DNA of 64,000 nt from Zingiber officinale (lineage: Eukaryota; Streptophyta; Magnoliopsida; Zingiberales; Zingiberaceae): the NCBI RefSeq assembly GCF_018446385.1, contig NC_056000.1, positions 76,456,688-76,520,687 on the forward strand, read 5' to 3'. The notes under the pieces are model-generated. The model searched no databases. It was not told the origin of the DNA and worked only from the letters and a program-made list of their open reading frames with translations. Positions 11,787 to 60,585 of the stretch are shown here, one piece after another (the first letter of the stretch is position 1; every line of letters begins with the position of its first letter). A program made the position numbers and the translations under genes.

Positions 11787-11853
<67 letters not shown>

Positions 11854-11896: not shown

Positions 11897-13054
11897 GGGG
11901 GTGTTTGGTATGAGCATGGGAATGAGAATCGGAATGGAAATTATTGTATTGTGGAATGAGAATGGGTATGAGCATGAATATCACTATTAAAAGCAATGTT
12001 TGGTTAGTTGCATACTTTCTATCGGAATAAATCAATATTTTCTTTTTTACCCTTAAAGGAAAATAAGAGAAAAAAATATATGTGAGAGAAAGATGAATGT
12101 GAGAGAAAAATATGATGAAAGAGAATGATGAGAGAGAAATTATGATGAGAGAGAAAGTGTGATGAGAAAGAATGAAGAGAGAGAAAGTGTGATGAGAGAA
12201 AATGAGAAAAGAGAGTGTGATAGAAGAGAGCATGATGAGAGATAAAATATGATGTGAGAGAAATTATGATGGGAGAGGATGAAGAGATAGAAAATGTAAT
12301 GAGAAAAAATGAGGGGAGAGAGAGTGTGTGATGAGAGAGATTGAGGAGAGAGAAAGTATGATGAGAGAGAAAGTGTGATGAGAAAAAAAGAGAACAGTGA
12401 GTGTGATGGGAGAGATTGAGAAGAGAGAAAGTATGATGAGAGAGAAAGTGTGTTGAGGAAAAAAAAGGAGGGAGTGTGACAAGAGAGATTGAGGAGAGAG
12501 AAAGTGTGATGAGAGCGAAAGTGTGATGAGAAAAAAAAAGAGAAAAGAGAGTGTGCTAGGAGAGATTGAGGAGAGAGAAAGTATGATGAGAGAGAAAGTA
12601 TGATGAAAAAAAAAAAGGCAGAGTGCGATGGAAGAGATGGAGGAGAGAGAAAGTACGATGAGAGAGAAAGTGTAATGAGAAAAAAGAGGAAACAGAGTGT
12701 GATAGGAGAGCGAAAGTGTGTGATAAAATGATGAGAGAGAAAATATGATGATAGAGAATAAGGAGAGAGAAGTGATATGAAAAATAAATAAATAAATAAA
12801 ATTTGATATTTGATATTAAGGGAGAAAATTTTAGTTTTAGGTCAAAAGTATTTTTGGAATAAGAGAATATTTTGATTGATGAAAATAGGATAATGACTCA
12901 TTGAAGGGGAGGTACATGGGAATGAGTTATTACCCAATTTCAAGGATTCATTCCCTTATTTGTATTCCTATTCCTATAATCCAAACATTAACAATGGCAA
13001 TCAATGATTCTCATTCTCATTCCCCACTCCTATTTCCCTAAACCAAACGCCCCC
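11897..13054. mobile_element. Non-autonomous PIF/Harbinger-like DNA transposon, copy 1
   Basis: A 1,158-bp element is bounded by inverted ends GGGGGTGTTTGGT and ACCAAACGCCCCC and flanked on both sides by TTA (11894-11896 and 13055-13057), the 3-bp target duplication of PIF/Harbinger and Tourist elements. The inner ends are also inverted ('gaatgagaatc' against 'gattctcattc'). The middle (about 12060-12790) is a degenerate purine-rich array of 'gagagagaaagtgtgatgaga' units with no coding capacity; the long Ser/Leu/His reading frames here are artefacts of it. A second copy is at 36651-37909. Confidence 0.85.
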
Positions 13055-13057
13055 TTA

Positions 13058-14295
13058 GTTATAATGAAATATACTATCAATGTATTAAATATATATAATA
13101 TGTGTGTGTTTTATGTAAAATTTGATCATTTCTCCTATGGAAATTATGGTTCTCTTGATCCCTTCCATGCCATGGATGAGTAAAGTTATGATAATTGGCA
13201 TGCATATTTTCATGAGCTTGCCGTGAGAATTAATTGTTCAACGAGTAAATAAAGCAACAGGTCGACCAATCACTACTCAAAAAAGTATCATTTAAAGTTG
13301 AAAATTAAGGCACCTCTATTTTATTTCCCGAGCAAATTGCATGCACTCGTAGTTAAAATGCTGCTCGGTGTTGCATGCCCACATGAGTGCATGCAACCGA
13401 TCGAGAAGATTGAAGGTGGCGAAGATTGGAATTGTAGATCGGTCTCCAGTTCCTTAATTCAATAGCTTATCTGTGTGTGAAAAAGAACAATCAAAATATA
13501 TACACATGTAAAGCAACAAGGACAAAGAAATTTGCTGCAACGAGAACAAAGATATTAATAATCGTCCTCGTTTTCTAAAAGGAAAAAATAAATAGAAATG
13601 GTACCACCGTTCCATTTTCAAGAGACGCAACTCGTTTTCGTCGTGTTGTATTGTCAACTGTCGTCCGTCCATTCCACTTGCGTTGGATAGCATGATGTCT
13701 TATTCAACCTTTACAACCTGTGCTAAAAAGGTACTTTCGTACTGCATCACAGCAAGTTACTGTGCTGACACCTAATGAAGGCATTCAATTCTTTGATCTC
13801 TCTATCTGTCTTTATTAATTTTGACTTTCAACGAGTGAAGATCTATTTTGTGTCAGAAACTGTATATGGGCATATTGTTTGTTAGGTTCGAATTTCTTAC
13901 ATCCCTAATTTGCTCTAAAATACCAAACATCAAAAGATTCCACGCCACGAAATATACCAAGGAAATCAAATAGCATTCGGAACGCATCAATAGTTCTAGA
14001 AAAATAGATGACTTCATATTGATCCTTAAGAAAATAACCTACTAATTCGTCTAAACTTCTGCATCTATCAGAGAAATAAGATAAGTTACCGATCAAGGTC
14101 GTTGACCTCTCCGGCATAAATAAACAAATGAATGAAAGTTTCAGTTTCAAAGCGAGAGGCCATGCTATGAAACAAGATCCTCTGTCCACAGCTTCATGAA
14201 GGTTTTGCTCATGTTGAGTACGACTGATCTCAGATGATAATTTGTAGCAATGGAGAACACCAAATATTCTGTCCTCGGCTCTTCGGAACAGAGGC
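13058..14295. other. Intergenic DNA and 3' flank of the CID gene
   Basis: No gene is recognised. The part next to 14296 is the presumed 3' UTR of the minus-strand CID gene. An open frame of 138 codons on the minus strand (13905-14321) overlaps the last CID exon in another frame and has no recognisable family, so it is treated as chance. Confidence 0.6.
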
Positions 14296-17200
14296 TCAGT
14301 TTGAAGCAGCTCGTGTTGCACGCAGCCTTACTGGTGTCTTAGAAGGACTCACCCTGAGATGCAGAGTTAAGTGTTAGGAGTTCAATAGTTGAATGAATTA
14401 AATTTAGGGCAGTGATGTCGGCCAAATCTTGCCTGATTGGAAGAGATCCTAACATCACGCCACTACAGTTGAGGGCGGAAATTGCGCTTTCTGCCTGTCA
14501 CATTCACAAATATGAATTGTAAGATATGGTGAAATCGCCTAGAATCGTTGGAATCTCATCATCAAGTAATAGGTAGAAGGAGAAGTGAATCTCGAAACAT
14601 TTCAGGATAAATCTAAAAATCGTATTAACAAAACATGTTTGTCTCCAACTATATGAGATTTAGCTACATGAATTTTGCCCTTTCATTAAGCTTCCAGTGA
14701 GTTCTATACAAAACTAAACCACTAGCAGTATATGATATGGCGAATAATGTGGGGCCCTCAAGTTGGGTTAAAGTTAAGGAAGCCGGGTGATGTGATGCTC
14801 AAAGTCAAAAAAAAGTCGACACTCGAAAAGGGTTCAATCACATGTCCCGGCCGAGTGATCTAGTCGATCGAACCATTGTATGATCATATCCAAAGTCCCT
14901 CGGGCTCGATGAAACACCGAGCTGTGTAAGTGCAAGGCAGAGCTAGGTCCTCTTGGTCACTCATGGTTAGCGAGGTCACACGACCCAGTTGACCGATTGA
15001 ACCAAAGGCCCGATCGGAAATACTAGACATATGCCCCGACTGGATTCTTCGGCCAAGCGGAGGTCGGGTCCTTGAGAATGACATCGTTCCTTAGCTGACC
15101 CGACCCCGCCCGACAAACGAGGCCTAATCGGCCGGCAAGCCTATCCACTCAGCATATAGATGGCCTACATACTTAACAACTTAATATTCCTTCTTAGCAT
15201 TTTGTGTAACAGTGGTCAAAGAATTAAGGGAATATTCCCTGTGCAGTTTGTGTGAGGAAGCTTCTATACTGCGAAACACAAAAATGGTGGGCCCATTTTT
15301 GGAAAGTTGTCAGAATGTCAGAAGGGATGGTCTTTTTTCGGAAGCACATTGGTGTTCATGCATAGAGAAAGAGTAATACTATATAAGGGGGTATTCACCT
15401 ACAGGCGCAGGTATGCAACCATACGCACTTAGAACTACAGTTAATTTCTATTGTTCATCGCATTCCTTTTCCACTAGATCATTACTGGTTTGAGCATCGG
15501 AGTGTCTAGGTCAGAGATCCCTCCCTGGCCCAGTTGCTGATGTTTCTTCCTTCTACGTTCTTTTTCGACACGCAGGAGAGCTCGATGTCGTTTTCTTCCG
15601 ACTCAAAGTCTTCTCACGGTCAATATTAGAGCCACCTACCCAACGCTCCATCCTCCCCGATTTCAGACAGAATCAAATTTGACATCGTTGGAAATCTTAG
15701 CCTAAATCTGAAATGCAAAAATGAAGGACTGACCGATTCAGTACAGTTATTTTGTAGCAAGAAGACTTTGAGCTACTAATAACTGTGGGGACCTTGACGC
15801 CGCTAGAGGGGGGTGAATAGTGACTCACCCAACGTTTGCTTCCTACAATGGTTAGTATACACAGCGGAATACAAAAAATAAATACTAACAAGAAAAAGTA
15901 AACCTAACACGTTGATTTAACGTGGTTCGGAGATAAAGCTCCTACTTCACGGTTGTCCGTAAGGTGGACGATCCCAATCCGTCGGTGGATGACTCCCCGG
16001 AAAACCTCCGGCTAGCTCGAGTAGCTCTTTGTGGGTGAAGAAACCTCGCCACAAACTCGCACAAGCTCTTGATCACTTAAGAAGACCTTGGAGACTCTAA
16101 TATGGGTTAACCACCTCTATTTTCGTCAATCTTGGCCAAGTACCCCGAGCTCTATTAAATAGAGCTCGGGAGGAAACACCTAGCTGCGTTTCTCGCCACC
16201 AGTCGACTGGTACAACCACCGATCGACTGATCATAAGTGAAATTCGACCGTTACAAGCCAACAACCGCCTACCAGTCAACTGATGAAAACACCAATCGAC
16301 TGATACAGTAATGCTATAGTACTGCTACAATAACGTTACAGTATTGATACAGTGTACACTAAAATTTTACCTGAGTACAATCTCTCATGCACTCGTCCTT
16401 GCCCGCACAACCTAGACCTAACCTTCTAGCCTCCTCCATCAACCTTATATCCCTTGGATGGTTCCCCATCCTTCACGCCTTGCCTTCTGGAACTTCCATT
16501 AGTCTTGTCATCATTGTCTGGTCTTTATTGCCAAGAGTCACGCTCCGGGACTTCATCCTTTGCCAAGTCACACTTGGACTTACATTGCCAAGACTACATA
16601 TTTGGACTTACACCGCCAAGACTCACCCTTGGACTTTCCTTGTTGTACCCGTATCCTGCACACTCACAATGCATATCAAATACAACAATAAACCTAACTT
16701 AAACCTTTGCCCAAATATCAAGTACCCAGATTGCTCCAACAATAACCACCCAAACGCAAAGGCTCGTGCAACAACAACAAACAGCAACCAGTGGTCCTTT
16801 CCAAACGACCTGGCTATATCGATAACAGACCCTCATACCGAGCGAGGGACCCGAGTGGAGGGCCCTTTCCAATCGGTTCCTCCTTTGGCCATATTCATAC
16901 AAGTACCTGTGCAACCGATCAGTCTTTCGCCCGTGTCCCCGTCCCCATATCATGTAGCGATATTCCGCACTCCCTTTGATGATATGGGTCGAGCGGAGAG
17001 GCCCCAAGACTCGTCTTTTGAAAACACACCCGCTCGGGACAATCGAAGGGGGAAAACTCTGATGGCTAGTAGCTACCCCAAGCGGGTAAGTACGTCATTC
17101 TCCAAGGAAATATTGGAGGATAAATTGTTGAGCCACTTCCAACCATTAACGATCAGAGAGTACGAAGGAGCGACCGACTTAGAGAATCATCTACTCAAAT

Positions 17201-20200
17201 TTAAAAATGTCGATATCCTCCATTAGCACACAAATGGCGTCAAGTGCCAAGTATTCCTTACCATTCTCTCTGGCTCAACACCGAGATGGTTCAACCAGCT
17301 CCCCGCTGAGTCCAACTGTCGTTTCAAAGATTTCTACAAGGCATTCCTCCACCACTTCGTCGGTAGTCATCGCTATCATAAGACCACGTTGAGCCTATTT
17401 TCCCTCAAGTAAGGACCCAAGGAGGTGCTGAGAGTATACATTAAAAGATTTAACCAAGTATCCATAGACGTCCCTTCGTCCACCCCGGAGATTCTAGTAA
17501 GTGTCTTCTCCCAAGGGCTCACTGATGAAGACTTCTTCCGGTCCCTGATCAAGAAGCCCCCCAGAGACTTCAACCATCTGCTCGGGAGGGCGACCAAGTA
17601 CATCAATGTAAAAGAGGCACAGTCTACTCAAAAGAAGGAGATTTTCGCACCTGCTCCTGTCTCTACCCCTGGGGTACAAAGCCCCTCCCCCTCCACTTCC
17701 ACACAAAAGAACCCAATCGGACCATCCTTCACATCCCCACGAGCAAAGGCCAAACACAGTTGAACATGATGAAGTCGAGCGGACGCAATTCCCTAAGCCC
17801 TGTCGATGGACCCCGCTGTTATGTACATTTTATCGATTGGGGACCCACAACATTGAAGACTATCTCCCAATAGTCAGAGATATCGCCGACCGAGTGGATC
17901 CCCGGGAGGGACCCCGAAAACACCAATCAGAACCAACAACGACCCCATAACAAAATAACTGAGCCCCATTTCAAGCTCCTACCGAGCCACCACGCCAACC
18001 GACTTGAGAGGAAGAAAACTACGGCAACGCCGCTCAGGATATATAGGTATGATAGCCGGCGGCCCGACCGACGAAGACTCCAACAAAGCCAGAAAATCAC
18101 ACGCGCACCGACTGGAGATTTATGTTGTTGGGTGCAGTCAATAACAAGCGCAAGGGCCCGAAATCAGCTTTGGGCCTAAGGACTTAGAAGGGGTGGAAGT
18201 GCCCCATGACGATACTCTAATCATTAAGGTTGTTATAGCTAATTATAACATACATCGTACTTTTATTAACACGAGCAACTTGGTCAACATTATTTTCAAG
18301 AAGGTGTTCAAGCAATTGCAAATAGAGAAGAGTGAGTTTCTGCCTATGACAACACTCTTATATGGATTCACTGACAATGAAGTTCAGTTGGTCGGACAAA
18401 TTAAGTTTGCTATATCCTTAGGGTGGAGCCCCTGATGAGGACTCATCGATCAACCTTCATCGTGGTCGATGCGCCCTCGGCTTACAATGTAATCTTGGGT
18501 CGATTGATTTTAAATAAGTTTCGAGCGGTCGTCTCGATCTTTTGCCAGAAGATCAAGTTCCTCGTGAACGATTAGGTTGTGGAAATAAAAGGAAACTAAC
18601 TGGTAGCGCGTAAGTGCTATGTGGATGTTGTCAAAACTGAAGCCCGAGTGACGCTGAGAATCCATCGGACAGGGGTGAATGTAATACATGAAGAGCCCCC
18701 GACTCTAATCTACGAAGAAAAGGAGGAGGTTCAGATACATCCCGACCAACTAGAAGCCACCACTCAGATAGCAGCCAATCTGGCGACCAAACTCAAGGTC
18801 GAGTTAGTGGAGTGTCTAACACGCAACAATGATATATTCGCTTGAACACCTAAAGCAATTATGGGCATCTCACCTGGGGTCATGGAACACGTGCTCCATG
18901 TCCTCCCGGAGGCCCGACCAGTCAAGAAGAAGAAAAAAAAAAAGACTTCGGAGCAAACCAAAACAAGATCATCTGAGTGGAGGTGGAAAAGTTGCTCGAG
19001 GCAGGGCATATCTGGGAATTCCAATTCCCGAGTTGATTGACCAATGTGGTGTTGGTGTCTAAGCTGGGAAATAAATGATGGGTCTACATCGATTTCAAGG
19101 AATTGAATAAGACATGCCCAAAGGACTATTATCCCTTGCTACATATTGATCAGCTAGTGGACTCGATGACTGACTGTGAGTTGATATGCATGCTAGATGC
19201 ATACCAGGACTACCACCAAGTCTCATTGGCTAGAGAGGACAAGGAGAAGGTTAGTTTCATCACAGCTGAAGGAACCTATTACTATAATGTTATATCGTTC
19301 GGATTAAAAAAATACAATTGTCACTTACCAACGACTCATGAACAAAGTGTTCCGGAGGCGGATCGGCCGCAACATGGAAGTGTATGTGGATGACATCTTG
19401 ATTAAGTCCCTTTGGGCCACAAACCTTTGTGCTAACATCTACGAGACATGTCAAATGTTGAGAAAGTATGAACTCAAACTCAACCCTCTCAAATGTTTGT
19501 TCGGAACCAAAAGCGAACGGTTCCTTGGCTACATAATGACCAACGAGGGATTGAGGCCAACCCGAGCAAGGCGCAAGCTCTCTGAGACATGGCTCCACCA
19601 TGCAACATGAAAGAAGCCCAACGGCTAACCGGGTGAATCACGACACTGTCACAATTCATCTCAAGATCGTTCGATCGGAGTCTACCCTTCTTCAAAATAC
19701 TTTGCTGAGCTACTAAATTTCAATGGGACACCTCTGCTCGCCAAGCCAATAGTCAGCGAACCCATGTGGGCACACTTGCCGACTACAAGAATGTTGTGGG
19801 GTTGGTTTTAGTATGGCAAGAGGGAAATGTGCAACAACCAATGTATTTCTCAAGTCATTTATTAAAAGATGCAGAGTGCCGCTACACTGCACTCGAGAAG
19901 TTAGCGTACAGACTAGTCTTAGCCGCTTAGAGTTATGTCCTTATTTTATTTCTCATCCAATTATTATATTGACTAATAGCACCCTGGGTCGCGTGCTTAT
20001 CAACCCGGAGGCTTCGAGAAGATTGATCAAATGGACTATGGAGTTGAGCGAGTATGATATATAGTATCAACCCCGAACGGCCATCAAAACCCAAGTCTTA
20101 GTCGATTTTGTGACCGAAATACAGAACCTAGAGCCATAAGAAACTTGAAAAATTTACGCGGATGAGTCGTCCGCTCGACAAGTAGGGGGATCGGAATACT

Positions 20201-23200
20201 TATGATATCATCTCGTGCAGATAAAATGCAGTTGTCTGTTCGAATGGACTATCAGACAACAAATAATAAAGCAGAATATGAAGTCTTGATATCCGGTCTA
20301 CAAGCCGCAAAGCATGTTAGAGCCACCCAAGTTTTGATCTACTTGGATTTTCAGTTGGCGGCTCAACAACTTTCAGGCAATTTCGAGATTAACAACGACT
20401 CAGATTATATGTTGAGAGCAGGATTTCAAGAAGTGACATTACAAAAAATCCCCTGATCGGAGAATCAGAAGGCAAATCAGCTAGCCAAATTGGTCGGCTC
20501 CTTAACCCCGTGGACTCTGGATAACCAGTGGAGCATACATTGTTGATAGCTCACAATGAGCAGCAAGCTGAGCTAGAGCTACAAAGTGATTGGAGAACGC
20601 CATTAATTTCATTTCTCCAACAAGGAATTTGACCAACCGATCGAGAGCAAGCGCGTGCAATCAAGAAAAAGGTCGGTCAGTTCACATTGATTGGAGACCA
20701 TTAGTTCACATTGGTTGGAGACCATTTATACCAGAGGGCTTTCTCTTGGCCCTTGCTCAAGTGCGTCGGGTTGGATGATGTACAATACATCTTACAAGAA
20801 GTTTATCATAGTTCATGTGGAAGCCACTCGGACGATTATTCACTCGCTCGAAAGATTTTACTAGCTGGATATTTTTGGCGCACTCTATAGGCCGATTTGG
20901 CTCAGCTGGTAGCCGCTTGTTTATCGTGTCAAAAGCACCAGAATATCCTGCACCGCCCCACAAAGATGTTGAAGATTTCAATTGTGTCATGCTCGTTCGA
21001 CCAATAGGGAATGGATATTGTAGGACCCTTCCCAATTGCGCCCGGTCAAAGGAGATTCTTTTAGTGGTCGTTGATTATTTTTCTAAATAGGTGGAGGTCG
21101 AGGCTCTGGCAAAGATAACCGAGTGGATGGTCATCAAGTTTTTTTGGCAAAACATAGTATGTCGGTTCAGAATTCCTCATAAGCTCATCTCAGATAATGG
21201 AAGGCAGTTCCAGAGTTGAAAAATTCGAGAGTGGTGCTAAGTTATGGTATCCTGCAAGCGTTCACCTCTGTGTTCTTATCCTCAAAGTCATGGTCAAGCA
21301 GAAGTCACCAATAGAGAAATAATTAGAGGACTCAAAATCAAACTAGACCATGTTGGGGAAAGTTGGGTGGATGAACTACCCAGCGTGTTGTGGGCTCATC
21401 ACACTATGCCTCGAGGCACATTTATATTCGTGAGCGCATTTATATTCGTGCACACACTATATAAGGGGGTCTCTACCTTACCACCTACAGGCGCAGGTAT
21501 GCAACGCAATGCAACCATACGCACTTAGAACTACCGTTAATTTCTACTGTTCATCACATTCCTTTTCCTCTCGATCATTCATTGATTTAAGCGTCGGAAT
21601 GCCTGTGCTAGGGACGCCTCCCTAGCTCGGCTGTTGACGTTTTCTTCCTTCTACGTTCTTTTTCGATACGCAGAAGCACTCGACGTCATTTTCTCCCAGC
21701 TCAAAGTCTTCTCATGGTCAACATCAAAGCCACCTATCCAGCGCTCTATCTTCTCCGATTTCAGACATAATCAGTATATTTAGTGGGTTCTTTGATTTTC
21801 TCCTATCCCTTACATCTGCTTTAATCAATTCAAGCCATTAACTTTCTAACTAGGGATTCTGTTGGTCACTTTCTAACATATCATATTATCCCAATTTATT
21901 TTACTTTCATTGGTAACTTATTAGAGCTACAACTAATAATTGCTGTTGGAAATGAATATATAGTTTTTTTTTATTTTTAACTTAAATAGTTAAAAAATTA
22001 ACCTTAGCGAGAGTTAAATTATTGAAAAACTAATTAAACTGCACCTCATTGATCAAGCAATGAAGAGTTATTTTAGGAGATTACATCAATTTAAGAGTTA
22101 TTTTATGGAAGAAGACTCGTTGATTGAAAGAACAATTAATTTTTTTACCATCCATAAAATTCTTTTACCAAAATACCATAAACAACTCAATAATTAGTTT
22201 ATATTTTCAATTTTAAACCTGACTAGGTACAGACCACTCTGATGCAAGGAATCATATCGGCTATCCCCTTTTCCAACTGAAGAATCTTAATGAAGACTAA
22301 ATAAGATTAGGAAGGTACAATATATTTCTGAAATCTTGAGGAACCTAAAAGAATATTTACTTATATGGATCTGTTAAAATTCTATTTTCAACAGAAGTTT
22401 GCAAAATTCAAGTACAACTTCCTAAATGAAATGATAATATACATGTTTTATGGTAATCAACAGCCAAAAAATTAAAGATAAACTAAACAAAACTTCCATA
22501 TCTAAACAAAAGCCAGAATAAGTTCAGAAACTCATTTTGTGATTTTTCTTTGCACGAGGCCACAAAAGATAATATCTTCCACTTATGTAAAAAGCCTAAC
22601 TACTGGTAAACTAATCAGGACAATGCACAAAACGAAGCAAAAATTGATTACAATGAATCTGCCACATTTGTTGATATCTGATCAACCAATTTCTTTGTGA
22701 AATTAACTAAATTGTACTTGCATCCAACTATTACGGTAACAGATTGAGAAAATACTAGATTACCTGAACAAATTCAATAAATGCAATACATGTTGAGTGC
22801 ATACTATCACCAAGAAGTCTCAAACGAGAAACCTGCACAGCAAGATACTATTAATAAATCCAATATATTGAATCTTCTCACAGTATGCTTATCTAGGTTT
22901 ATGATCTAACCTCACCACAACCATGTTCAAATAAACTTTTGACTTCTGACTGAGTAATCTGTAGCAGGATGAGAAGGTCAACACTTAAAAAGTTAATAAG
23001 AATACAACAATTTCTTGCATTCAATTTGTTGATATATCACGGCCATAAAATCTAGTTTTCAAATAATTAGGTAAAAGAAAGTGATAATGCAGAAACCAAA
23101 ATATTATCGCTACCTTTTTATCAATGTTCGTACAGTAGACTGTCCTTAAAACCATTTCCTCTTCATCTTTGGACTGCACGAAAACTTAACAGTTACAAAT

Positions 23201-26200
23201 TCTTGAATAAAATTCATAATGAAGAGACAAGCATAGATTAGTCTTCTTCCTTTCATGAGATAATCCAAGCAGGCTTTCAAGTAGACTGTTGAAGTAGTTT
23301 GAATAAGGAATAAACATGCTTACTTGAGGAAGAAATTTTATATTCACTGGCAGAATTGCAGTTTTTGAAGGTAAAACTCCGACAGGGTATAAACCTAACA
23401 CGGTCCCATCAAGATTTAGTGCTGCACTTGCACCATCTATGAGAAGAAGAAAAGAAGCTTGACCGCATTAGACGTGTGACAGATGCATATCCAAGAAGGC
23501 AACAGGACCATATAAACATACCTTCATCAGAGTACTCTATAAATGCAAAGCGTAGATTTGAATGGGGATCACCACAGATTCGGCAATCTATTACCTTCAG
23601 CAAAGAAAAATAAAATATCATGAGAAATAATGAATTGAATACATGATTAATTCAATACATCTGTGCTTTCAAGTGACATGAAAAGAGGATAGATGAAATA
23701 ATGTCCATCAACAGAAAATAAATGTCAATTTTCAAATGTCCCAAGGCTGTTTAAAAAAACACTGTTAGCCTAGTCCTTGTTTAAGTTAAGGATAATAAGC
23801 ACTTCTAACTACAAAAATTTTAGGGATCTTAGATGGGTTATTCATGTGGAAGATACTGATATGACATTACTTACCATGTGTTGGGATCTAAACAAATAAT
23901 CAGACAACAAATTTGCATCTCAAAGAAACCAACAGAAGCATGTTGATAATCTGGTCTGGTCCTCAGATCCATTGGTGAATGAAGGTAAGACAGAGCTCAC
24001 TGCATAAGTCTAGATCACATGAGATAAGGCAGATGAGAAATTTTTTTGGTATGATAAAGAGATTATTGATTCTCATTTCATGCTCTGTCTCCATGCAAAA
24101 TGCAGGAATTATTATCTGCAAACTTCCCTAAATCCTCATTACTTGACAGTGACACTACTACCATAACTCTCTAAACAAGACAAGATTTATTGACGGTCAC
24201 AATCATCCATACATTAGTAAATAATCAAGAATGACGCTAGCTGAATCATCAAACAGCTAACAATTGACTCCCTAACAACTTGACCTAAACTCAACAGCTA
24301 GCAGAGGCAGCATACTCTAAGACAGGGTGGATTTTTGGAATTTAGGTTTTTTCTATATAGATGTCTAGAAGCGTAGAAAATGTAATGCCTAAGTGTATAT
24401 CACTAACAGGAGACTTATATATCCTTTGGGAAAAAACAAGTTTTATTCAAGGCAGACAGATAGGAGACTCATTTATGATATCACATACAAGTCTACCCTG
24501 ATGCATCAATATGTCTATCATGCAGTTCACTCCAAATATCTCTTGAAGGTCACATCAGCCAATAATGTGAACATGTTAGTTCATAACGTGGGATCCCCAT
24601 CCATCCAGGATTTAGGCTGCCATTCTAAATGCACAAATAACTCAAGGATGACTGCCTGAAATGAGTTAGAATATGCTACACATACTACAATATTTGGTTC
24701 AAATTGAAAAAAAAAAAAAAAAAAAAAAAACTCAACTGAATGAAATTTTGATTTATATTGGTTTCTGTCCAAATAGGATCGGCTTTGAACCGAATGAGCA
24801 CCCCTACACAAGGATGCTTACTATTTTTTAACCACTAAATAGTTATAAAGTTAAAGAAGTTACAGAATTATTAAGGTGAGATTCTTGAACTGTAGATTAC
24901 CAACTCCATTTAAACACAGGTCAAGCTATATCACTGATGCTATACAGTCTACCTGCTATTAACAAAAATGTTGTGGGATACTTGGCATGAACACAAACCC
25001 CAATTGAAGATATCATGACACAGGTTAGTTATGTGTGTGGAATAAGTAGTAATCTTCATTCCTGCAATCCAGTACTGGTCATGAGCTTTGGCAAACTACT
25101 ATTGGTCATTGGCAGTTGCAGCGCATCATGAATCAATCTAATTGTATGCTATGATTTGGGAAGAAGTCCTTGAATCACTCACTATATTGCACAACAAAGA
25201 ATTTATGATCTTGTTCCGACCAAAAAGAAAGTTAAGGTTCTTGCTTGCTTGGCTACCTCTGGAAGGATGACTCAGTACATAGATGCCTCGGCATGAAAAA
25301 ATTTCAGGATAGACAAAGGCATGCAATTTTATCCAAAACTATGGACTCTCTGTTGGTACCTATAAATAGGCATACATCTACTTGAATGCTACTTTGCGAA
25401 TTTCCGAAGGAACAAAAACTAACTGCAAAAGATTTTCCACTCTGAAAGCAATTTCAGAACTACTCTACAACTGTTGAATATTTCAGTGCCAAACAAAAAG
25501 CGACAACATTGTAGAAAGCTAACATGGCTATGGGCAATTTGAAACACAAGAAACAATTAACAATGTTATATTCCCCAACCGGAGAATACCCCCACAATAG
25601 AATGCATATAGTGATACCCTATATAGATTAGGCTAGTAGCCACTAGCTACTACTGGTATATTGATTGTCATTGCATCAGCTATCCGGCTTCAGGTTGTTT
25701 GAAAAAGAAAGATTCAAAAAATATATAAAAAAAATACTTAGAAACACTCTGAACATTGCAGACTAAACAAAAGAAACTCTCTAAACATTGTAGATTAAAC
25801 AACTTACCTGCCCACATGGAGCAAATATTTCAGCAAGCCTTTCTTCAGTTACCTGATAAATATAGGACAATGACTTAATTAGCACAGAGAGCACATAAAG
25901 TGACACGATTAGTGGTAGAAGGATCAGACAATTGTTTATATAGAAGGAACAAATAAATGTTTACTCACAACGTTATCAATGTTAGAAACATATACAGTTC
26001 GCCTAATGCTATCCTCTTTTTCAGCCCCTCGAAGCCTAAAATTAAGTCTCCTCTTGCCATGGCTATAGCCATTTCTTCTCTGCAAAATAAGGAATAGAAA
26101 TCAAAAATAAGTGTAAATACGTAGTACAATTCTAAAAATATAGAAAAAAAGATTGATATATTTCCTTGAGATCAAATTTTATCACAAAGGATCATTTTAG

Positions 26201-26719
26201 CCTCCAATTCCAATTTGATTTTTTGATAAGGTAAAAGGTATACAAGGATAGAGTGATTGAAAAATAAGAAGCAACTAAAACCAAAACCTTCGAACATTAA
26301 AATTTTGAGGATGTAAGCTTAATTTTGACAAACGCGAAAACTAAGGTAATGAAATTGTAGGAAGTGGAGAGAAATAAAGCAATTACTCTGCTATTAGGGT
26401 GATTACGCGACGATCCGTCACTGCTGGAATCCTTACTGCTATCATTCTTACTAGTGATTGCGTAATTGAATTGATAATCACTCGACGCCACGAAAATGGG
26501 CGCATCGGCGGAGAGCCGGTTGTTAGATTTCTTTTGGCCATCGCCATAAGCAGCCCCAGAGGAAGGGACGAACTCCTTGGCGTAGGGGTTTAATTTGGAT
26601 AGCATATCAACCAACCTCTTCACATCCCTCTGGTACTCCGTCTGAGTCTCCTCCGCCGGAGACTTGCCGTGGACGAATTGATCGTCCGACCCGATCGCCT
26701 TCTCGGTCACGGCAGCCAT
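14296..26719 (-). CDS. CID8-13-type PABP-interacting RNA-binding protein (PAM2 + two RRMs)
   Basis: Ten exons on the minus strand: 26719-26387, 26079-25969, 25852-25808, 23594-23522, 23436-23324, 23173-23114, 22958-22911, 22832-22764, 14494-14433, 14353-14296. Phases agree at every junction and give 323 aa, near the usual size of the family. SKLNPYAKEFVPSS (41-54) is a PAM2 motif, which in CID proteins binds the MLLE domain of poly(A)-binding protein. A basic patch (111-128) precedes RRM1 (about 138-215, TVYVSNID and RFAFIEYS) and RRM2 (about 235-312, TVYCTNID and CIAFIEFV). The role is inferred to be mRNA binding coupled to PABP. Intron 8 is about 8.3 kb because a Tat-type retroelement lies in it; the last two exons are therefore far from the rest. 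The last intron has a GC donor (AG|GCAAG). All other introns are GT-AG. Splicing across intron 8 is predicted, not shown. Confidence 0.92.
14733..15675 (+). repeat. Left LTR of the Tat element in the CID intron
   Basis: Starts TGATATGGCG and ends AGAATCA, followed directly by a decayed primer-binding-like stretch ('aatttgacatcgttgg'). Its last 290 bp aligns with 21449-21773, including the 'actatataaggggg' TATA region and the 'cctacaggcgcaggtatgca' block. Its start resembles that of the solo LTR at 29420. Confidence 0.85.
15784..16741 (-). mobile_element. Solo LTR of a Copia-type element, nested in the Tat element
   Basis: A 958-bp block bounded by TGTGGGG and CTCCAACA is flanked by a perfect 5-bp duplication ATAAC (15779-15783 and 16742-16746). 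Read on the minus strand it starts TGTTGGAGCAATCTGG. It holds a TATA region inside a perfect palindrome (16144-16170) and ends with the 'ccacgttaaatcaacgtg' block and a C-rich run, like the LTR at 269-2055. No internal element sequence is present, so it is a solo LTR left by recombination between two LTRs. It inserted after the host Tat element was in place. Confidence 0.85.
21415..21773 (+). repeat. Right LTR remnant of the Tat element in the CID intron
   Basis: Aligns with the promoter-to-end part of the left LTR and ends in TCA directly before the target duplication GTATA. The match of both outer ends shows the two LTRs belong to one insertion. Confidence 0.8.
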
Positions 26720-50371: not shown

Positions 50372-53300
50372 ATCTCCCACTTATACTAATGACTAAGCTG
50401 CCATATCTTCTACCATACATCTGATTCCCATTCCCTCCACATGCCGATCGAAAGCTTTCGCCGGAAGGGCCTTAGTGAAAGGATCTGCTAGGTTATCCGC
50501 TGATGCAATCTTGGCGATGACAACTTCTCCTCGCTTCACGATATCTCGTATCAGGTGGTACTTGCGCTCTATATGTTTACTTGCCTTATGAGCTCGTGGT
50601 TCCTTCGAGTTTGCAACTGCACCGCTATTATCACAATAAATTGTGATGATTTTGGGCAAACCAGGAATCACATCTAAGTCCATTAGAAAGTTCCTGAGCC
50701 ATACTGCTTCTTTAGCTGCCTCAGAGGCTGCTACATACTCAGCTTCCATGGTTGAGTCTGAAACGCATTTCTGCTTAACACTCCTCCATGAAATGGCTCC
50801 ACCTCCTAAAGTAAACACATAGCCTAATGTAGACTTACTGTTATCCCTATCTGATTGGAAATCTGAATCCGTGTAACCCACAGGGAGCAGATCGTCTGCT
50901 TGGTAAACTAGCATATAATCTCTAGTCCTTCTCAGGTACTTCAATATATGCTTTATCATGATCCAATGTCCTTGTCGAGGTTACTCGATGTCTGTGACCA
51001 TGCAAAACAGATATCAGGTCTCGTACATAGCATTGCATACATTAGGCTTCCTACAGCCGAAGCATAAGGAACTGCTTTCATGTCCTCTATCTCTTTCGAC
51101 GTCTTTGGAGACATCTCTTTAGATAGAGCTACTCCATGTCTAAAAGGTAAGAAACCTTTCTTGGAATCCTGCATGCTAAAACGAGCAAGGATTGTATCTA
51201 TATATAAAGCTTGGGATAGACACAACATTCTTTTCTTACGATCCCTTATAACTTTGATCCCAAGAATGTGTGCACAATCTCCTAAGTCCTTCATATCAAA
51301 TTGTTTGGACAACCATACCCTTACGTCTGATAATACCTTGACATTGTTGCCAATTAACAAAATATCATCTACGTATAGTACAAGAAATACCACCACGTTT
51401 CCGTTACACTTCTTATATACACAAGACTCATCCGGACTTTGAATAAATCCATATGACTGGATCACTTCATTAAACTGGATGTTCCAAGACCTTGAAGCTT
51501 GCTTCAGTCCATAAATGGACCGATTGAGCTTGCACACTAGATGCTCTTTGCCTTTTTCAATGAACTCTTCTGGTTGCTTCATATGGATGTTCTCTTCAAG
51601 ACTTCCATTAAGGAAAGCTGTCTTGACATCCATTTGCCAAATCTCATAATCCATATGAGCAGCAATGGATAAGAGTATCCGGATAGACTTAAGCATGACT
51701 ACCGGTGAAAAGGTTTCCTCATAATCGATTCCCTCTTTCTGAGTGTACCCTTTCGCAACAAGCCTAGCTTTGAAGGTTTCTACCTTCCCGTCTGTCCCTC
51801 TTTTCCTTTTGTAGATCCACTTACATCCAACGACTTTTACACCATCAGGTGGTTCTACAAGCTCCCAGACCTTGTTAGAGTACATTGACTCTATTTCAGA
51901 ATTCATCGCCTTTTGCCAAGATGCTGCATCTGTATCTTGGAGTGCTTCATCATATGTCCAGGGATCGGGTTCATGTTTACAGGATCAAATCCAAGATTCT
52001 CCCAAAAATATGAATCTTCGGGTTGCCTTACAACCCTCCCACTCTGACGAGGCACTTCCGTGGTTGTGTATCATGTGTGACACGTGTTGCGGTCTCTTGT
52101 GGTACTTCATCTTGTCTTGTTGATACTGAAGTAGACGTGTCCTCTCTAAGTTCTTCTAAAACAACTTTCACTTGGGCTTGTGATCCATTATATAGTCTTC
52201 TTCTAAAAGCGGGCATTGGTGCTAACAATGACCTTCGGTCTTTAGGACTATAGAATAAACCACCTTCGTTCCTTTGGGATATCCTACAAACACGCGAACT
52301 TCATGCGGGATTCTAACTTATCGATCTGGTTTCACATGTCTTGGACTACCAAATCGAATATGTCTTAGACGGGCTTCGCCCATTCCACAATTCTATGGGA
52401 GTAGAAGAAACTGATTTAGAAGGTACTAAGTTCGGAACATACACTGCTATTTCTCGGGCATATCCCCAAAGCGAATTTGGTAATTGAATAACTCATCATT
52501 GATCTAACCATCTCTATAAGAGTCCTATTCCTTCGCTCTGCTATTGGGGTGTTCCAGTGCGAACAATTGAGATTGAATCCCGGCCTTCGATAAGTAATTC
52601 CTAAACTCTCCTAAGAGGTATTCGCCACCACGATCGTCGTAGTGTCTTGATACTTTTACCTAGTCGTTTCTCCACATCAGCCTTGTATTCTTTGAACTTA
52701 TCAAAGCACTCGGACTTGCGGCGCATTAGGTAAATGTATCCATATATTGAATAATCGTCTATGAAAGAGACAAAATATTCAAAACGTCCTCTTGCCTGGA
52801 CAGACATAGGACCACACAAATCAGAGTGAACCAATTCTAACACTTCTTTGGCTCTATACCCCTTGGCCTTGAATGACCTCTTGGTCATTTTACCTTCCAA
52901 GCAAGATTCACAAGTTGGAAAATTTTCCAACTCAAATGAACTCAAAAGTCCATCGGCTATAAGCCTCTGAATCCTACTTAAGTTAATATGACCAAGCCTT
53001 AGATGCCAAAGATATGCTTGGTTCATTTCCGAAGGTTCTTTTCTCTTATTAGAGTTAGAAGATGAGTTATAAATTTCCATGTTTTGCTTTGTGGAAGAAA
53101 TTGGATTTAAAGTATACAAATTGCCAACTAATGCACCAGAACAGATAATCACTTTATTTCTTTTAATAACTACATCGTTACTGAAAGAAACTGAATATCC
53201 ATCTAAAAGCAGTTTAGAAACTGAAATTAAATTCTTTCTAAAACTGGGTACATAAAGACAATTTCTTAAAATCAAATTTCTATTTCTACTAAAAGATAAG

Positions 53301-55360
53301 TAGACGTCTTCCACTGCAATAGCTGTCACCTTAGTAGCATTGCCCATGCAGACGGTAATTTCTCCTTCGATAGTCGTCGGGTTTCCTGGAACCCCTGCAA
53401 GGAATTGCAGACATGATCATGGCTCCGTATCTACACACCAGGTCTTGGTAGATAACACCGCTAAACATGTTTCAACAACTAGAGTATGAGATATACCTTT
53501 GTTTTGGTTCCTACGAGGACAGTCCGCCTTCCAATGTCACCTTGCAGATGAAGCACTTGCCCTTGACTTCTTCATTCCAACTTTAAATCTCGTACTCGAG
53601 ATTTATTCACTTTCTTTCTTGAACCGACTTGTTTCTTCTTCTTCTTTCCTTCGGTTTAGAAGTAGAACCATTTCGAGATAGTGAATTTGAGCATTGTGAC
53701 GAAATAATCCTTCTGCTGCTTCATTAGTTCCGCTAATGAATAAACCCTCTTATTCATATTATAGTTCAACTGCTCAAAACTTCTAGGTAGCGTTTGAAGG
53801 ATCATATCGATCTGGGTTTCCCATCAATTTCTCCTCCAAGGTATCTCGTTCGGATAAGCCATCATCTTTAGGATATGATCCCTTACGAGTACCCTCTTGC
53901 ATGGTGGCTGTCATTATCTTTCTCATGGCTTCTTGCCTAGAAGCCCTATCACGATGACCAAAGAGTTCCTTGAGATTGTTCATAATATCATAGTTGGTAA
54001 ATCTTGATGTTGATGTTGCAATACATTTGACATTGAAGCCAAAATGTAACACCGCCATCTCATCTGCTTACCCATTTCCTATGATATTCAATCTCCTCTT
54101 GGGTAGATTCACCGATGGGTGCATCAGGGCATTGCTCGATCAATACATATTTATAGCTTTCAGCAGTAAGAACAATGTCCGGGTTTCTTTTCCAATCTAT
54201 GTAGTTTGGTCCAGAAGTCTATTCTGTTGAAGTATGATGGACGGTGAGTTGAAAGACATCCTAAGAATCACAAATAACTTTTGGTCAGAACTCTAAATTT
54301 AGAATAATATTGATTCCTCAAACAATACTATTTTAAATTAACCAACACCTCATAACACCGTGAATTTTGTATGCCACGTTAGTGTGGACGTATACAAATT
54401 CAACATTTGTAAAAGGAGGGTTTTAACCCATTAATTTTATTATCTTGTCAACCTAACTTTTTGACAAATAAAATTAATAGTTTGTATCATTTGGTCACAC
54501 AAATAATAGCAGTGACTCCGTTTGGGAGGATACTATTAGATGTGTCTAAGTGTATACCATTACTTGACACTAAGTCCATTAATAAGATTATGCCCCTTCC
54601 GTTGGGGAAGATCACACGCTCTTAATTAACTTCCTATAGTCATCCAAAAATGGAAGTCTGTTCTAGTGATCCGCAAACAAGCTCATCCGTTATGAAGGAA
54701 GGCACTCAGAGCCAACGCGCAAGCTTGTTTGCTTCACTTACAAACCAGTAATGGAGACCATGGGATTTATTTAAAAATCCCTCTCCTACTTAGTTATTTA
54801 TAAATGAGGAATTTTAACTATGCTAGCCTACTTTACTTGTAAACTAACATGCACACACAACATAATATAAAAGCAATAGAGAAACTAATTTTCAACTATT
54901 ATGGCTTTTATCTCTAGTTGTCCTCCGTGTGTTGTCATCCCAAGCTGCTGCCATATTTGGCCACCGCCACCGGGTCTAGCTGTCGCATCCATCTTGCTCC
55001 TTGTTCCGCTGCGCCTCTGGTCCTTAGAAGGTTCCACGCTTTGCAAGATTCGATCCGCGACATAAATAGAATTTTACATTTTGATCCTATATTCCATAAA
55101 AGGAATGTACATGTATCTAGATCAAAAATAAAATCCTAATAAAACTAAATACAGCTCCTGCTGTATTTTAATACAATCATGCACACACATATAAATGCCC
55201 TTGACATGTCCAAGGGTCCAATCACACACATAATAACTAAAAGCCATAATAGTTGGATCCTACATCCACAAAGTTAGCACATCCTACTATTAACCTGCCT
55301 AAATTATGTATGACATGTGCATAATTAAACTAAATACCAAATACACAGAGGCAAAACCCT

Positions 55361-57784: not shown

Positions 57785-60585
57785 TCATCAAGTGCCGCTC
57801 GCCCGAGAAGATTAAGAAAAAGTCAGCTTCGTTTCGTTACAGCCGACGACACCTATTGCTATAATGTGATGCCGTTCGGACTGAAGAACGCGGGAGCCAC
57901 TTATCAACGCTTAATGAACAAAGTGTTCAAGGAGCAGATCGGGCGAAACCTCGAAGTATATGTGGATGACATTCTCATCAAGTCAGTCCGAGCGGCCGAT
58001 CTCTTCTAAGACATGGAGGAAATTTTCCGAACGCTGTGGAAATATGGAGTTAAGCTAAACCCTCAGAAGTGTCTGTTCGGAGCAAAAGGCGGGCATTTCC
58101 TGGGCTACATAGTAACCGAGCGGGGCATCGAGGCAAATCCCATCAAGGTGAAAGCGTTACAAGATATGCCACCCCCAAGAAATCTGAGGGAAGTGCAGCG
58201 CTTGACCGATCGGATAACTGCTTTGTCAAGATTCATCTCCAAGACCGCCGACCGGAGCTTACCTTTTTTCAAAATCTTGCGCAAAGCTACTAAGTTTCAC
58301 TGGGACGAAGAATGCGATCGGGCGTTCGAAGATCTGAAGACATATTTGAACTCTCTCCTGGTACTAGCCAAGCCAGCTGCGGGTGAGCCACTTTGTATCT
58401 ACTTATCTTCAACCGAGCAAGCAATCGGCTCGGCACTAGTAAGGGCGAGCGGAGAAGAGCCTGTATATTTTCTGAGCCATATTTTAAAAGATGCTGAATC
58501 TCGCTACACCGGACTCGAGAAGCTGGCTTTCGCTTTGGTTCTCGCCGCTTGGCGCCTCCGTCCCTATTTCTTGGCTCATACTATCATTGTCCGGACGAAC
58601 ATCCCATTGGGAAGAGTGCTGTTGAACCCAGAAGCGTCCGGGCGGCTCATCAAATGGACAACGGAATTGAGCGAATTTGACATTCAATACCAGCCCCGTT
58701 CGGCGATAAAGGCGCAGTCCTTGGCGGATTTTGTCACCGAAGTACAAAGGCCAGAACTCGAAGCCATGTGGAGGATATTTGTGGACGGGTCGTCCACTAG
58801 GCTTGGGAGCGGGATTGGAGTACTACTGCTCTCTCCCCAAGAGGAAAAGATGCACTTATCCGTCCGGCTAGATTACAGAGCTACAAATAACGAAGCAAAG
58901 TATGAAGCTCTTATAGCCGGTTTACAGGCAGCCCGGCATGTGGGAGCCGGACGGGTGACTATACATTCAGATTCTCAGTTGGCCGCTCAGCAGCTCTCTG
59001 GTACTTTTGAGATTAACAACGCTCGGCTCAAACTCTACGCTGAAGCCTTTGAGAAGCTTAAAGCCAATTTCAGAGAAGTCATTATCCAGAAGATACCCCG
59101 AGCGGAAAATCAGGCGGCAGATGAGTTAGCTAAACTCGCGAGTTCAATATCCCCGGTCGCCATTCAGCAGCCAATTGAACAAGTATCTTTGGTGGCGCAC
59201 GTCGACCGGATGGAGGGCCTCTCGTTTCCGAGCGATTGACGGACACCCATCATGAAGTTTCTCCGCTCGGGTGTTACATTGTCCGATCAGGATGAGGCCC
59301 AGCTACTAAGGAGGAGAGTCGGTCGGTTCACGCTCATTGGAGATCAACTCTACAAAAAGGCTTTCTCCCGCCCGCTGTTGAAATGCGTGAGCTCAGAAGA
59401 CGCGGCGTACATCCTCCAAGAAGTGTATCAAGGATCATGCGGAGGTCATCCGGGCGGACGATCGCTGGCCAAAAAGATCCTGCTGGCCGGATACTTCTGG
59501 CCAACCCTACAAGCAGACGCCGCTCGGACCATTGCGACGTGCCTTTCTTGCCAAAAGTATCATAATTTCTCACACAGACCGGCGGAGGAAATGAAAGCAG
59601 CTACTGTGTCCTGTCCGTTCGACCAATGGGGAATGGATATTGTGGGTCCATTTCCTATGGCGACCGGACAGCGGAAATTTCTACTGGTGGCAGTCGATTA
59701 TTTTTCCAAGTGGGTGGAGGCCGAGCCGCTAGCCAAGATCACAGAGCATATGGTCAAGAAGTTTATCTGGCAACATATCATCTGCCGGTTCGGCATCCCC
59801 CGTCGACTTATTTCCGATAACGGGCGGCAGTTCGCGGGGAAGTTGCTCGAAGATTGGTGCAAAAGCTATGACATCGAGCAACACTTCACGTCTGTGGTGT
59901 ACCCACAAAGCAATGGTCAAGTCGAAGTAACCAATTGGGAAATTCTTCGTATTCTGCGCGCTCGGCTCGACCATTTGGGAGGAAGCTGGGTCGATGAAGT
60001 GCCGGGCGTCCTATGGGCCATCCGAACAACCCCAAAGGAAGGAACGGGCGTCACGCCTTTCCATCTGGTGTACGACGGCGAAGTGGTTATTCCTGTCGAA
60101 GTCGGCGTCGAGTCCGTCCGGATTCAGAATTATGATGGTGATAACGCCGAGCCGAGGAACATGGAGCTGGATTTGGTCGAAGAAGAGCGAGCCAAGGCAT
60201 CCGTCCGGCTGATGGCGTACCGGCAAAGAATGAAACAGAATTACAACCGGCGAGTGATCCCTAGAGCATTCCAAGTTGGCGACCTTGTCTGGAAGAAAGT
60301 AAAGCCGGTCGGCGACGTCGGCAAACAGGAGGCTCCCTGGGCAGGCCCCTTCAAAATCATCGAAAAGCTCCGCTCGGGCGCTTATTATTTAGAGTATGAA
60401 GATGGGCGGCAGCTGGATCGACCATGGAGCGCGAATAATCTCCAGCCGTACCGAGCTGGGTAAGAGGTGCGCTGATGTAATTTTGCATACGTTTTGGTCG
60501 CCTATGTACTTGTAATGCAGGCAACAAAAATGACAAAGGATGAAAAATAGCTTCGCTGAACGGCAGTGTTCAAATTAGCTTTAAA

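Follow-up and report, generated by a model that had tools for sequence, protein, structure and literature searches.

How much can an intron swell before its gene loses the exons that lie beyond it? The question is raised by a gene of ginger, Zingiber officinale, in a stretch of 64,000 nucleotides (contig NC_056000.1, C15:76456688-76520687) that we call the window and whose numbering we use unless another contig is named. The gene belongs to the CID family, and all but its last two small exons are separated from its end by an intron filled with retroelements. The genome is haplotype-resolved (3,090,333,446 bases in 211 contigs), and since matches come in pairs of contigs (such as C1/C2 and C15/C16), contig C16 carries the other allele. 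This gave us two versions of the same intron to compare, one of about 8.3 kb and one of about 31 kb. We probably have here a functioning gene of CID class D whose eighth intron has grown by stepwise nested insertion, the intron most likely still being spliced out with its elements masked.

The ten exons of the gene lie on the minus strand and give a joined sequence of 972 nt, stop codon counted, that encodes 323 amino acids in frame and with usable splice sites. Exon 1, at 26387-26719, holds the start codon and a PAM2 motif. It is followed by exon 2 at 25969-26079 (111 nt, a length that agrees with most paralogs), exon 3 at 25808-25852, exon 4 at 23522-23594, exon 5 at 23324-23436, exon 6 at 23114-23173, exon 7 at 22911-22958 and exon 8 at 22764-22832. 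Intron 8 runs over 8269 bp (14495-22763), beyond which come exon 9 at 14433-14494, encoding the end of the second RNA recognition motif (RRM2), and exon 10 with the stop codon at 14296-14353. A 108-nt exon 2 was discarded in favor of the 111 nt at 26079-25969 because its start had no AG acceptor. The Pfam run used the 322-amino-acid product of that shorter exon; it found PAM2 (PF07145) at 39-54 with 26.3 bits, against a cut-off of 20, and RRM_1 (PF00076) in two stretches with 90.2 bits. PAM2 followed by two consecutive RRMs is the class D architecture as set out in PMC4574140. By its predicted domains the product is thus a class D CID, of the CID8-13 type, and PABP-interacting by class.

An earlier note on this DNA, made from the letters alone, had ended exons 1-8 at 22764 and placed the terminal exons at 14494-14433 and 14353-14296, in phase and encoding the expected end of RRM2. 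The joined frame bears this out, and the 323-residue product carries both RRMs. Nor do the terminal exons come from another gene copy, a doubt the same note had raised: genome matches above 90% to 13800-14700 fall here and on the C16 allele, and in the paralogs the two exons lie close by and follow one another as here. The donor of intron 9 is GC (14431-14432) in the window, on the C16 allele and in the paralog pair on C17/C18 (loci L006 and L007); it is GT in the remaining loci where exon 9 was located.

Those paralogs provide a yardstick for intron 8. Nine further CID-like loci were picked up by matches to exon 1. The modeled set leaves L020 without a gene model and has fainter CID-like places on further contigs outside it; terminal exons were located for L012, L014, L018 and L019, while those of L013 and L015 fall outside the set, the downstream DNA having been left out. 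In five allele pairs intron 8 measures 809/840, 304/304, 2403/2329, 964/991 and 661/662 bp, and in two more loci, each from one haplotype, 2680 and 3242 bp. Once the window gene's intron 8 and the mis-chained introns (8-9 of L012-L015 and 9 of L018-L019) are set aside, no two allelic introns differ in length by more than 74 bp.

Most of the length of our intron is one old retrotransposon. It occupies 14733-21773 (7,041 bp), reads along the plus strand and so runs antisense to the gene, and is flanked on both haplotypes by the target duplication GTATA (14728-14732 and 21774-21778). Taking away the element and one GTATA leaves an intron of 1223 bp. Compared with the introns of C17/C18, this native part aligns clearly only over 125 bp on the donor side, so that the pre-insertion intron has no independent confirmation there. 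The element's 5' long terminal repeat (LTR) spans 943 bp (14733-15675, a start backed by a few relatives among those listed), and of the 3' LTR about the last third remains, some 318 bp at 21456-21773, following the integrase remnants. In between, the reading frames are broken. Reverse transcriptase (RVT_1) passes the Pfam cut-off at 19308-19610 and falls below it at 19079-19393, as do RNase H at 19753-20064 and a gag match. A second RNase H piece, RVT_3, is over the cut-off at 20166-20456, after the reverse transcriptase pieces and before an integrase remnant at 20984-21400, which we recognized by a 69% DNA alignment to the integrase core of an element on C16 (element B, below); two pieces after RVT_3 had no Pfam match. 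An RVT_3 placed after RNase H and ahead of integrase is typical of Tat elements, and on that domain order the element is assigned to the Tat lineage of Ty3. Its surviving LTR parts differ by 15.1% in the window and 15.9% on C16.

Nested within the Tat element, again on both haplotypes, is a solo Copia LTR of 958 bp with TG...CA ends (15784-16741, minus strand, sense to the gene), flanked by ATAAC at 15779-15783 and 16742-16746. Its family gave about 9,700 first-look candidates, of which 40 were scored and 18 compared besides this copy and its allele; the 18 start at 15779-15791 and end at 16721-16750 in window numbering. An end near 16327, where another ATAAC occurs, was rejected because the compared copies reach 16721-16750 and ATAAC recurs at 16742. 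A polypurine-like tract follows four of the seven family copies read at their edges (L029, L030, L032 and L040), which gives the solo LTR its minus orientation. The earlier note had described a 7-kb Tat-type element on the plus strand with a clean GTATA, and a second, nested insertion with ATAAC. Order, orientation (the protein pieces are on the plus strand) and duplications all hold on two haplotypes; what needs amending is the state of the element, which is decayed, with only the stump of a 3' LTR.

On C16 the same intron reaches 31,066 bp. The gene is in frame there with the same exon lengths, and Tat element and solo LTR are both present. The extra length comes from three inserts private to C16, all of them nested inside the old Tat element. 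Copia A (11.2 kb, C16:64634461-64645679, plus strand, antisense to the gene) has an LTR pair and the target duplication GCTTC; Pfam places its integrase (rve, L002:362-808) before RVT_2 (L002:618-2885). Tat-like B (10.6 kb, C16:64651098-64661706, minus strand, sense to the gene) is full-length, has an LTR pair and the duplication GAGAC, and codes in turn for RNase H, RVT_3 and integrase. The third, of 899 bp at C16:64662368-64663266, has inverted ends and an 8-bp duplication, AACTAGAC; we presume it hAT-like from its TAGG ends and the 8-bp duplication. In the window each target site is present once: GCTTC at 15260-15264, GAGAC at 20694-20698 and AACTAGAC at 21341-21348. One copy of each means that C16 is the derived state. 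C16 has 22,797 extra bases, and the three inserts with their duplications supply 22,745 of them; small indels, one of them a 61-bp tandem unit, make up the remainder. Read from these target sites, the sequence shows stepwise nested growth to alleles of 8.3 and 31 kb.

Two observations on the C16 intron deserve mention in their own right. Between C16:64634461 and 64661706 (L001-L004) it holds opposite-oriented relatives: Tat matches B at about 66%, and the solo LTR matches the LTR ends of Copia A at about 70%; the pre-mRNA might fold into weak hairpins there. Element B also contains a tandem array of units of about 64 bp (C16:64655092-64655587).

When did this happen? Across five stretches of shared Tat and solo LTR DNA, 194 of 6555 positions differ between haplotypes, or 2.96% (Kimura two-parameter distances 1.9-3.8%, 3.05% for the largest stretch); these counts, like the transition counts below, used Tat and Copia A starts at most one base off the final boundaries. 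The LTR pair of Copia A differs by 44 substitutions in 1591 positions (2.77%) and that of B by 15 in 851 (1.76%). BLAST gives the two Copia A LTRs an identity of 92.5%, but this was set aside as a measure of age, the extra mismatch being gaps. At the rate of 1.3e-8 used in the ginger genome paper, A would be about 1.1 and B about 0.7 million years old, and the haplotypes would have split 0.3 million years ago by the gene body and 1.2 million by the largest Tat stretch; transitions at methylated sites inflate ages of this kind. On these distances B looks younger than the haplotype split and A about as old as the split, the latter a point estimate without error bars.

Is the tail of the gene still used? 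Between the alleles, exons 9-10 are identical over all 120 nt. Four coding differences exist, at 26547, 26546 and 26417 in exon 1 and at 25811 in exon 3, together with others in the presumed 3' untranslated region, such as those at 14224, 14064 and 14040. Exons 4-10 carry no allelic single-nucleotide polymorphism, so short junction reads alone could not be phased. Against paralogs, the ratio of nonsynonymous to synonymous substitution (Ka/Ks) in exons 9-10 compared with exons 1-8 is 0.275 versus 0.311 for L006, 0.127 versus 0.371 for L008 and 0.065 versus 0.240 for L016, where Ks is saturated. All tail values are below 1, compatible with coding sequence in use. The kept frame and splice sites weakly favor splicing over loss of the end of RRM2.

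The elements, meanwhile, have a mutational signature of their own. CG and CHG transitions between haplotypes number 99 of 1010 sites in Tat and solo LTR versus 9 of 486 in gene body and donor side (Fisher p 1.6e-9), and CHH transitions 60 of 2086 versus 10 of 1439. Transversions do not differ (35 of 6555 versus 21 of 5410, p 0.28).

Could the growth itself be illusory? An assembly error might have produced the large C16 allele or have joined exons 9-10 to the gene. We consider this very unlikely: each of the inserts private to C16 is bounded by a duplication of its target site and shows an LTR pair or inverted ends, the structure spanning the Tat element is alike on two haplotype assemblies, and the stretches are free of N. 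Alternatively the window haplotype might have lost three elements rather than C16 having gained them. In favor of this, hAT elements are able to excise. LTR elements, however, are not known to excise precisely, and it is clean single target sites that the window has for both of them. The LTR divergence of A and B is, moreover, not above haplotype divergence, as haplotype-private insertions require. Loss from the window seems to us highly improbable.

A more serious rival accepts the growth and denies the splicing. The 8.3-kb intron, or only the 31-kb one, would be spliced inefficiently, transcripts would end in intron 8, the end of RRM2 would be lost and paralogs would cover the function. A retained intron 8 does meet a stop after two codons, VI, giving a protein that ends EFVQVI. 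The solo LTR and element B of C16 are in sense orientation, and putative LTR poly(A) sites could act; poly(A)-like hexamers also occur in the donor-side intron, and these we take as uninformative. Further CID loci are present, so loss of this gene's tail could be buffered. Set against all this, exons 9-10 keep an intact frame, splice sites and stop, which the two haplotypes share without a difference, whereas the Tat DNA of the intron between has diverged by the 2.96% given above. We judge inefficient splicing with loss of the tail unlikely on balance. That buffering is nevertheless one of several points that weigh against a spliced and masked intron. At the 3' flank rate of 1.72%, finding no difference in 120 nt has a probability of 0.12. 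For L010 the tail is the less constrained part (0.321 versus 0.220), and since paralog Ks is about 0.4-0.5 or more, Ka/Ks mostly covers time before the Tat insertion; constraint on the tail since then is indicated only weakly by these comparisons. The transition excess suggests past methylation of the elements in CG and CHG contexts by proxy, its context being read from whichever allele has C or G. Transitions on the 3' side (13100-14731), at 2 of 92 CG, 1 of 91 CHG and 14 of 443 CHH sites, depart from the simple pattern.

Splicing of a masked intron remains the reading we prefer. The history of insertion is shown by the sequence: intron 8 began at about 1.2 kb and received the Tat element first; a Copia element then inserted into Tat and now survives as a solo LTR. 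Copia A, Tat-like B and the hAT-like element were added solely on the partner haplotype. The elements would be heavily methylated in the germline lineage, now or formerly, as the transition patterns indicate. The host would transcribe through and splice out the whole intron, heterochromatin masking the splice and poly(A) sites of the elements, much as heterochromatin that depends on IBM2, EDM2 and CMT3 does within Arabidopsis introns. Some premature transcripts ending EFVQVI-stop are to be expected, presumably more from the 31-kb allele with its sense, full-length element. It is tempting to go further: the two alleles might differ in how much of their CID mRNA is full-length and how much truncated, and a clonal crop would then carry a stable structural switch, set by the heterochromatin of the intron, for a protein without RRM2. 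This is speculation, and we think it rather improbable.

The rest of the window has features of its own. A 1158-bp insertion at 11897-13054, absent from C16, has inverted ends GGGGGTGTTTGG / GGGGGCGTTTGG and TTA duplications, and is by our assumption PIF/Harbinger-like; its 233-residue frame (12140-12841) had no Pfam match. Nearby, at about 11791-11850, lies an AT repeat far longer than on C16. An open frame of 473 amino acids at 42621-44042 matches the Transferase family PF02458, presumably of BAHD type, over nearly the full profile. A minus-strand Copia element (RVT_2, gag_pre-integrs) lies at 50956-53416, and another Tat-like element at 58010-60463, where two adjacent frames encode RNase H, RVT_3 and integrase.

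Where does this intron stand among those already described? Retrotransposon-driven growth of introns is commonplace in plants, and the epigenetic masking of intronic elements is likewise already known; this is a clear new case. Among the matches listed in the open-access literature, with ginger and CID terms combined in part only, we found no paper on the intron of this gene. Its useful part is the allelic contrast: in one nucleus, introns of 8.3 and 31 kb interrupt near-identical coding sequence, and polymorphisms in exons 1 and 3 and the presumed 3' untranslated region tell the alleles apart. Two alleles so unequal offer a good natural test of a gene's tolerance of intron growth, including the cost to splicing of length and of sense elements. 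There is a practical side too, in that repeat masking could truncate annotated genes of this kind, here at 22764. The ginger genome paper reports 46,902 structural variants between haplotypes and a link between transposable element proximity and allelic expression differences.

Comparable introns are known from Arabidopsis. Heterochromatic marks on intronic transposable elements promote splicing or prevent premature polyadenylation, according to PMC4417168, and at RPP7, AT3G05410 and AT1G11270, genes of the IBM2/EDM2 pathway, a long intronic retrotransposon costs the gene its downstream exons when masking fails (same source). The ginger intron is alike in its long retrotransposon, and its transition pattern would suggest CHG methylation. 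It differs in that the Arabidopsis elements are of about 5 kb and were tested with transcripts and mutants, whereas the ginger inserts are larger in sum, nested, different between alleles and known from sequence. Intron 7 of IBM1 is another methylated intron that regulates its gene, described as sensing heterochromatin and as widespread among flowering plants (PMC11265718); nothing suggests a sensor role for the ginger intron. Oil palm is likewise a monocot and a clonal crop with an intronic retrotransposon: at DEFICIENS, loss of CHG methylation from Karma (Bad Karma) leads to alternative splicing and premature termination (PMC8395315). Karma is a LINE (long interspersed nuclear element) with an epiallele and a phenotype, whereas the ginger intron is built of LTR elements. 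In domesticated grapevine, vegetatively propagated as ginger is, recent LTR elements have enlarged introns (PMC3058033). There the evidence is a survey of many genes; in ginger it is a single gene, followed insertion by insertion on both haplotypes.
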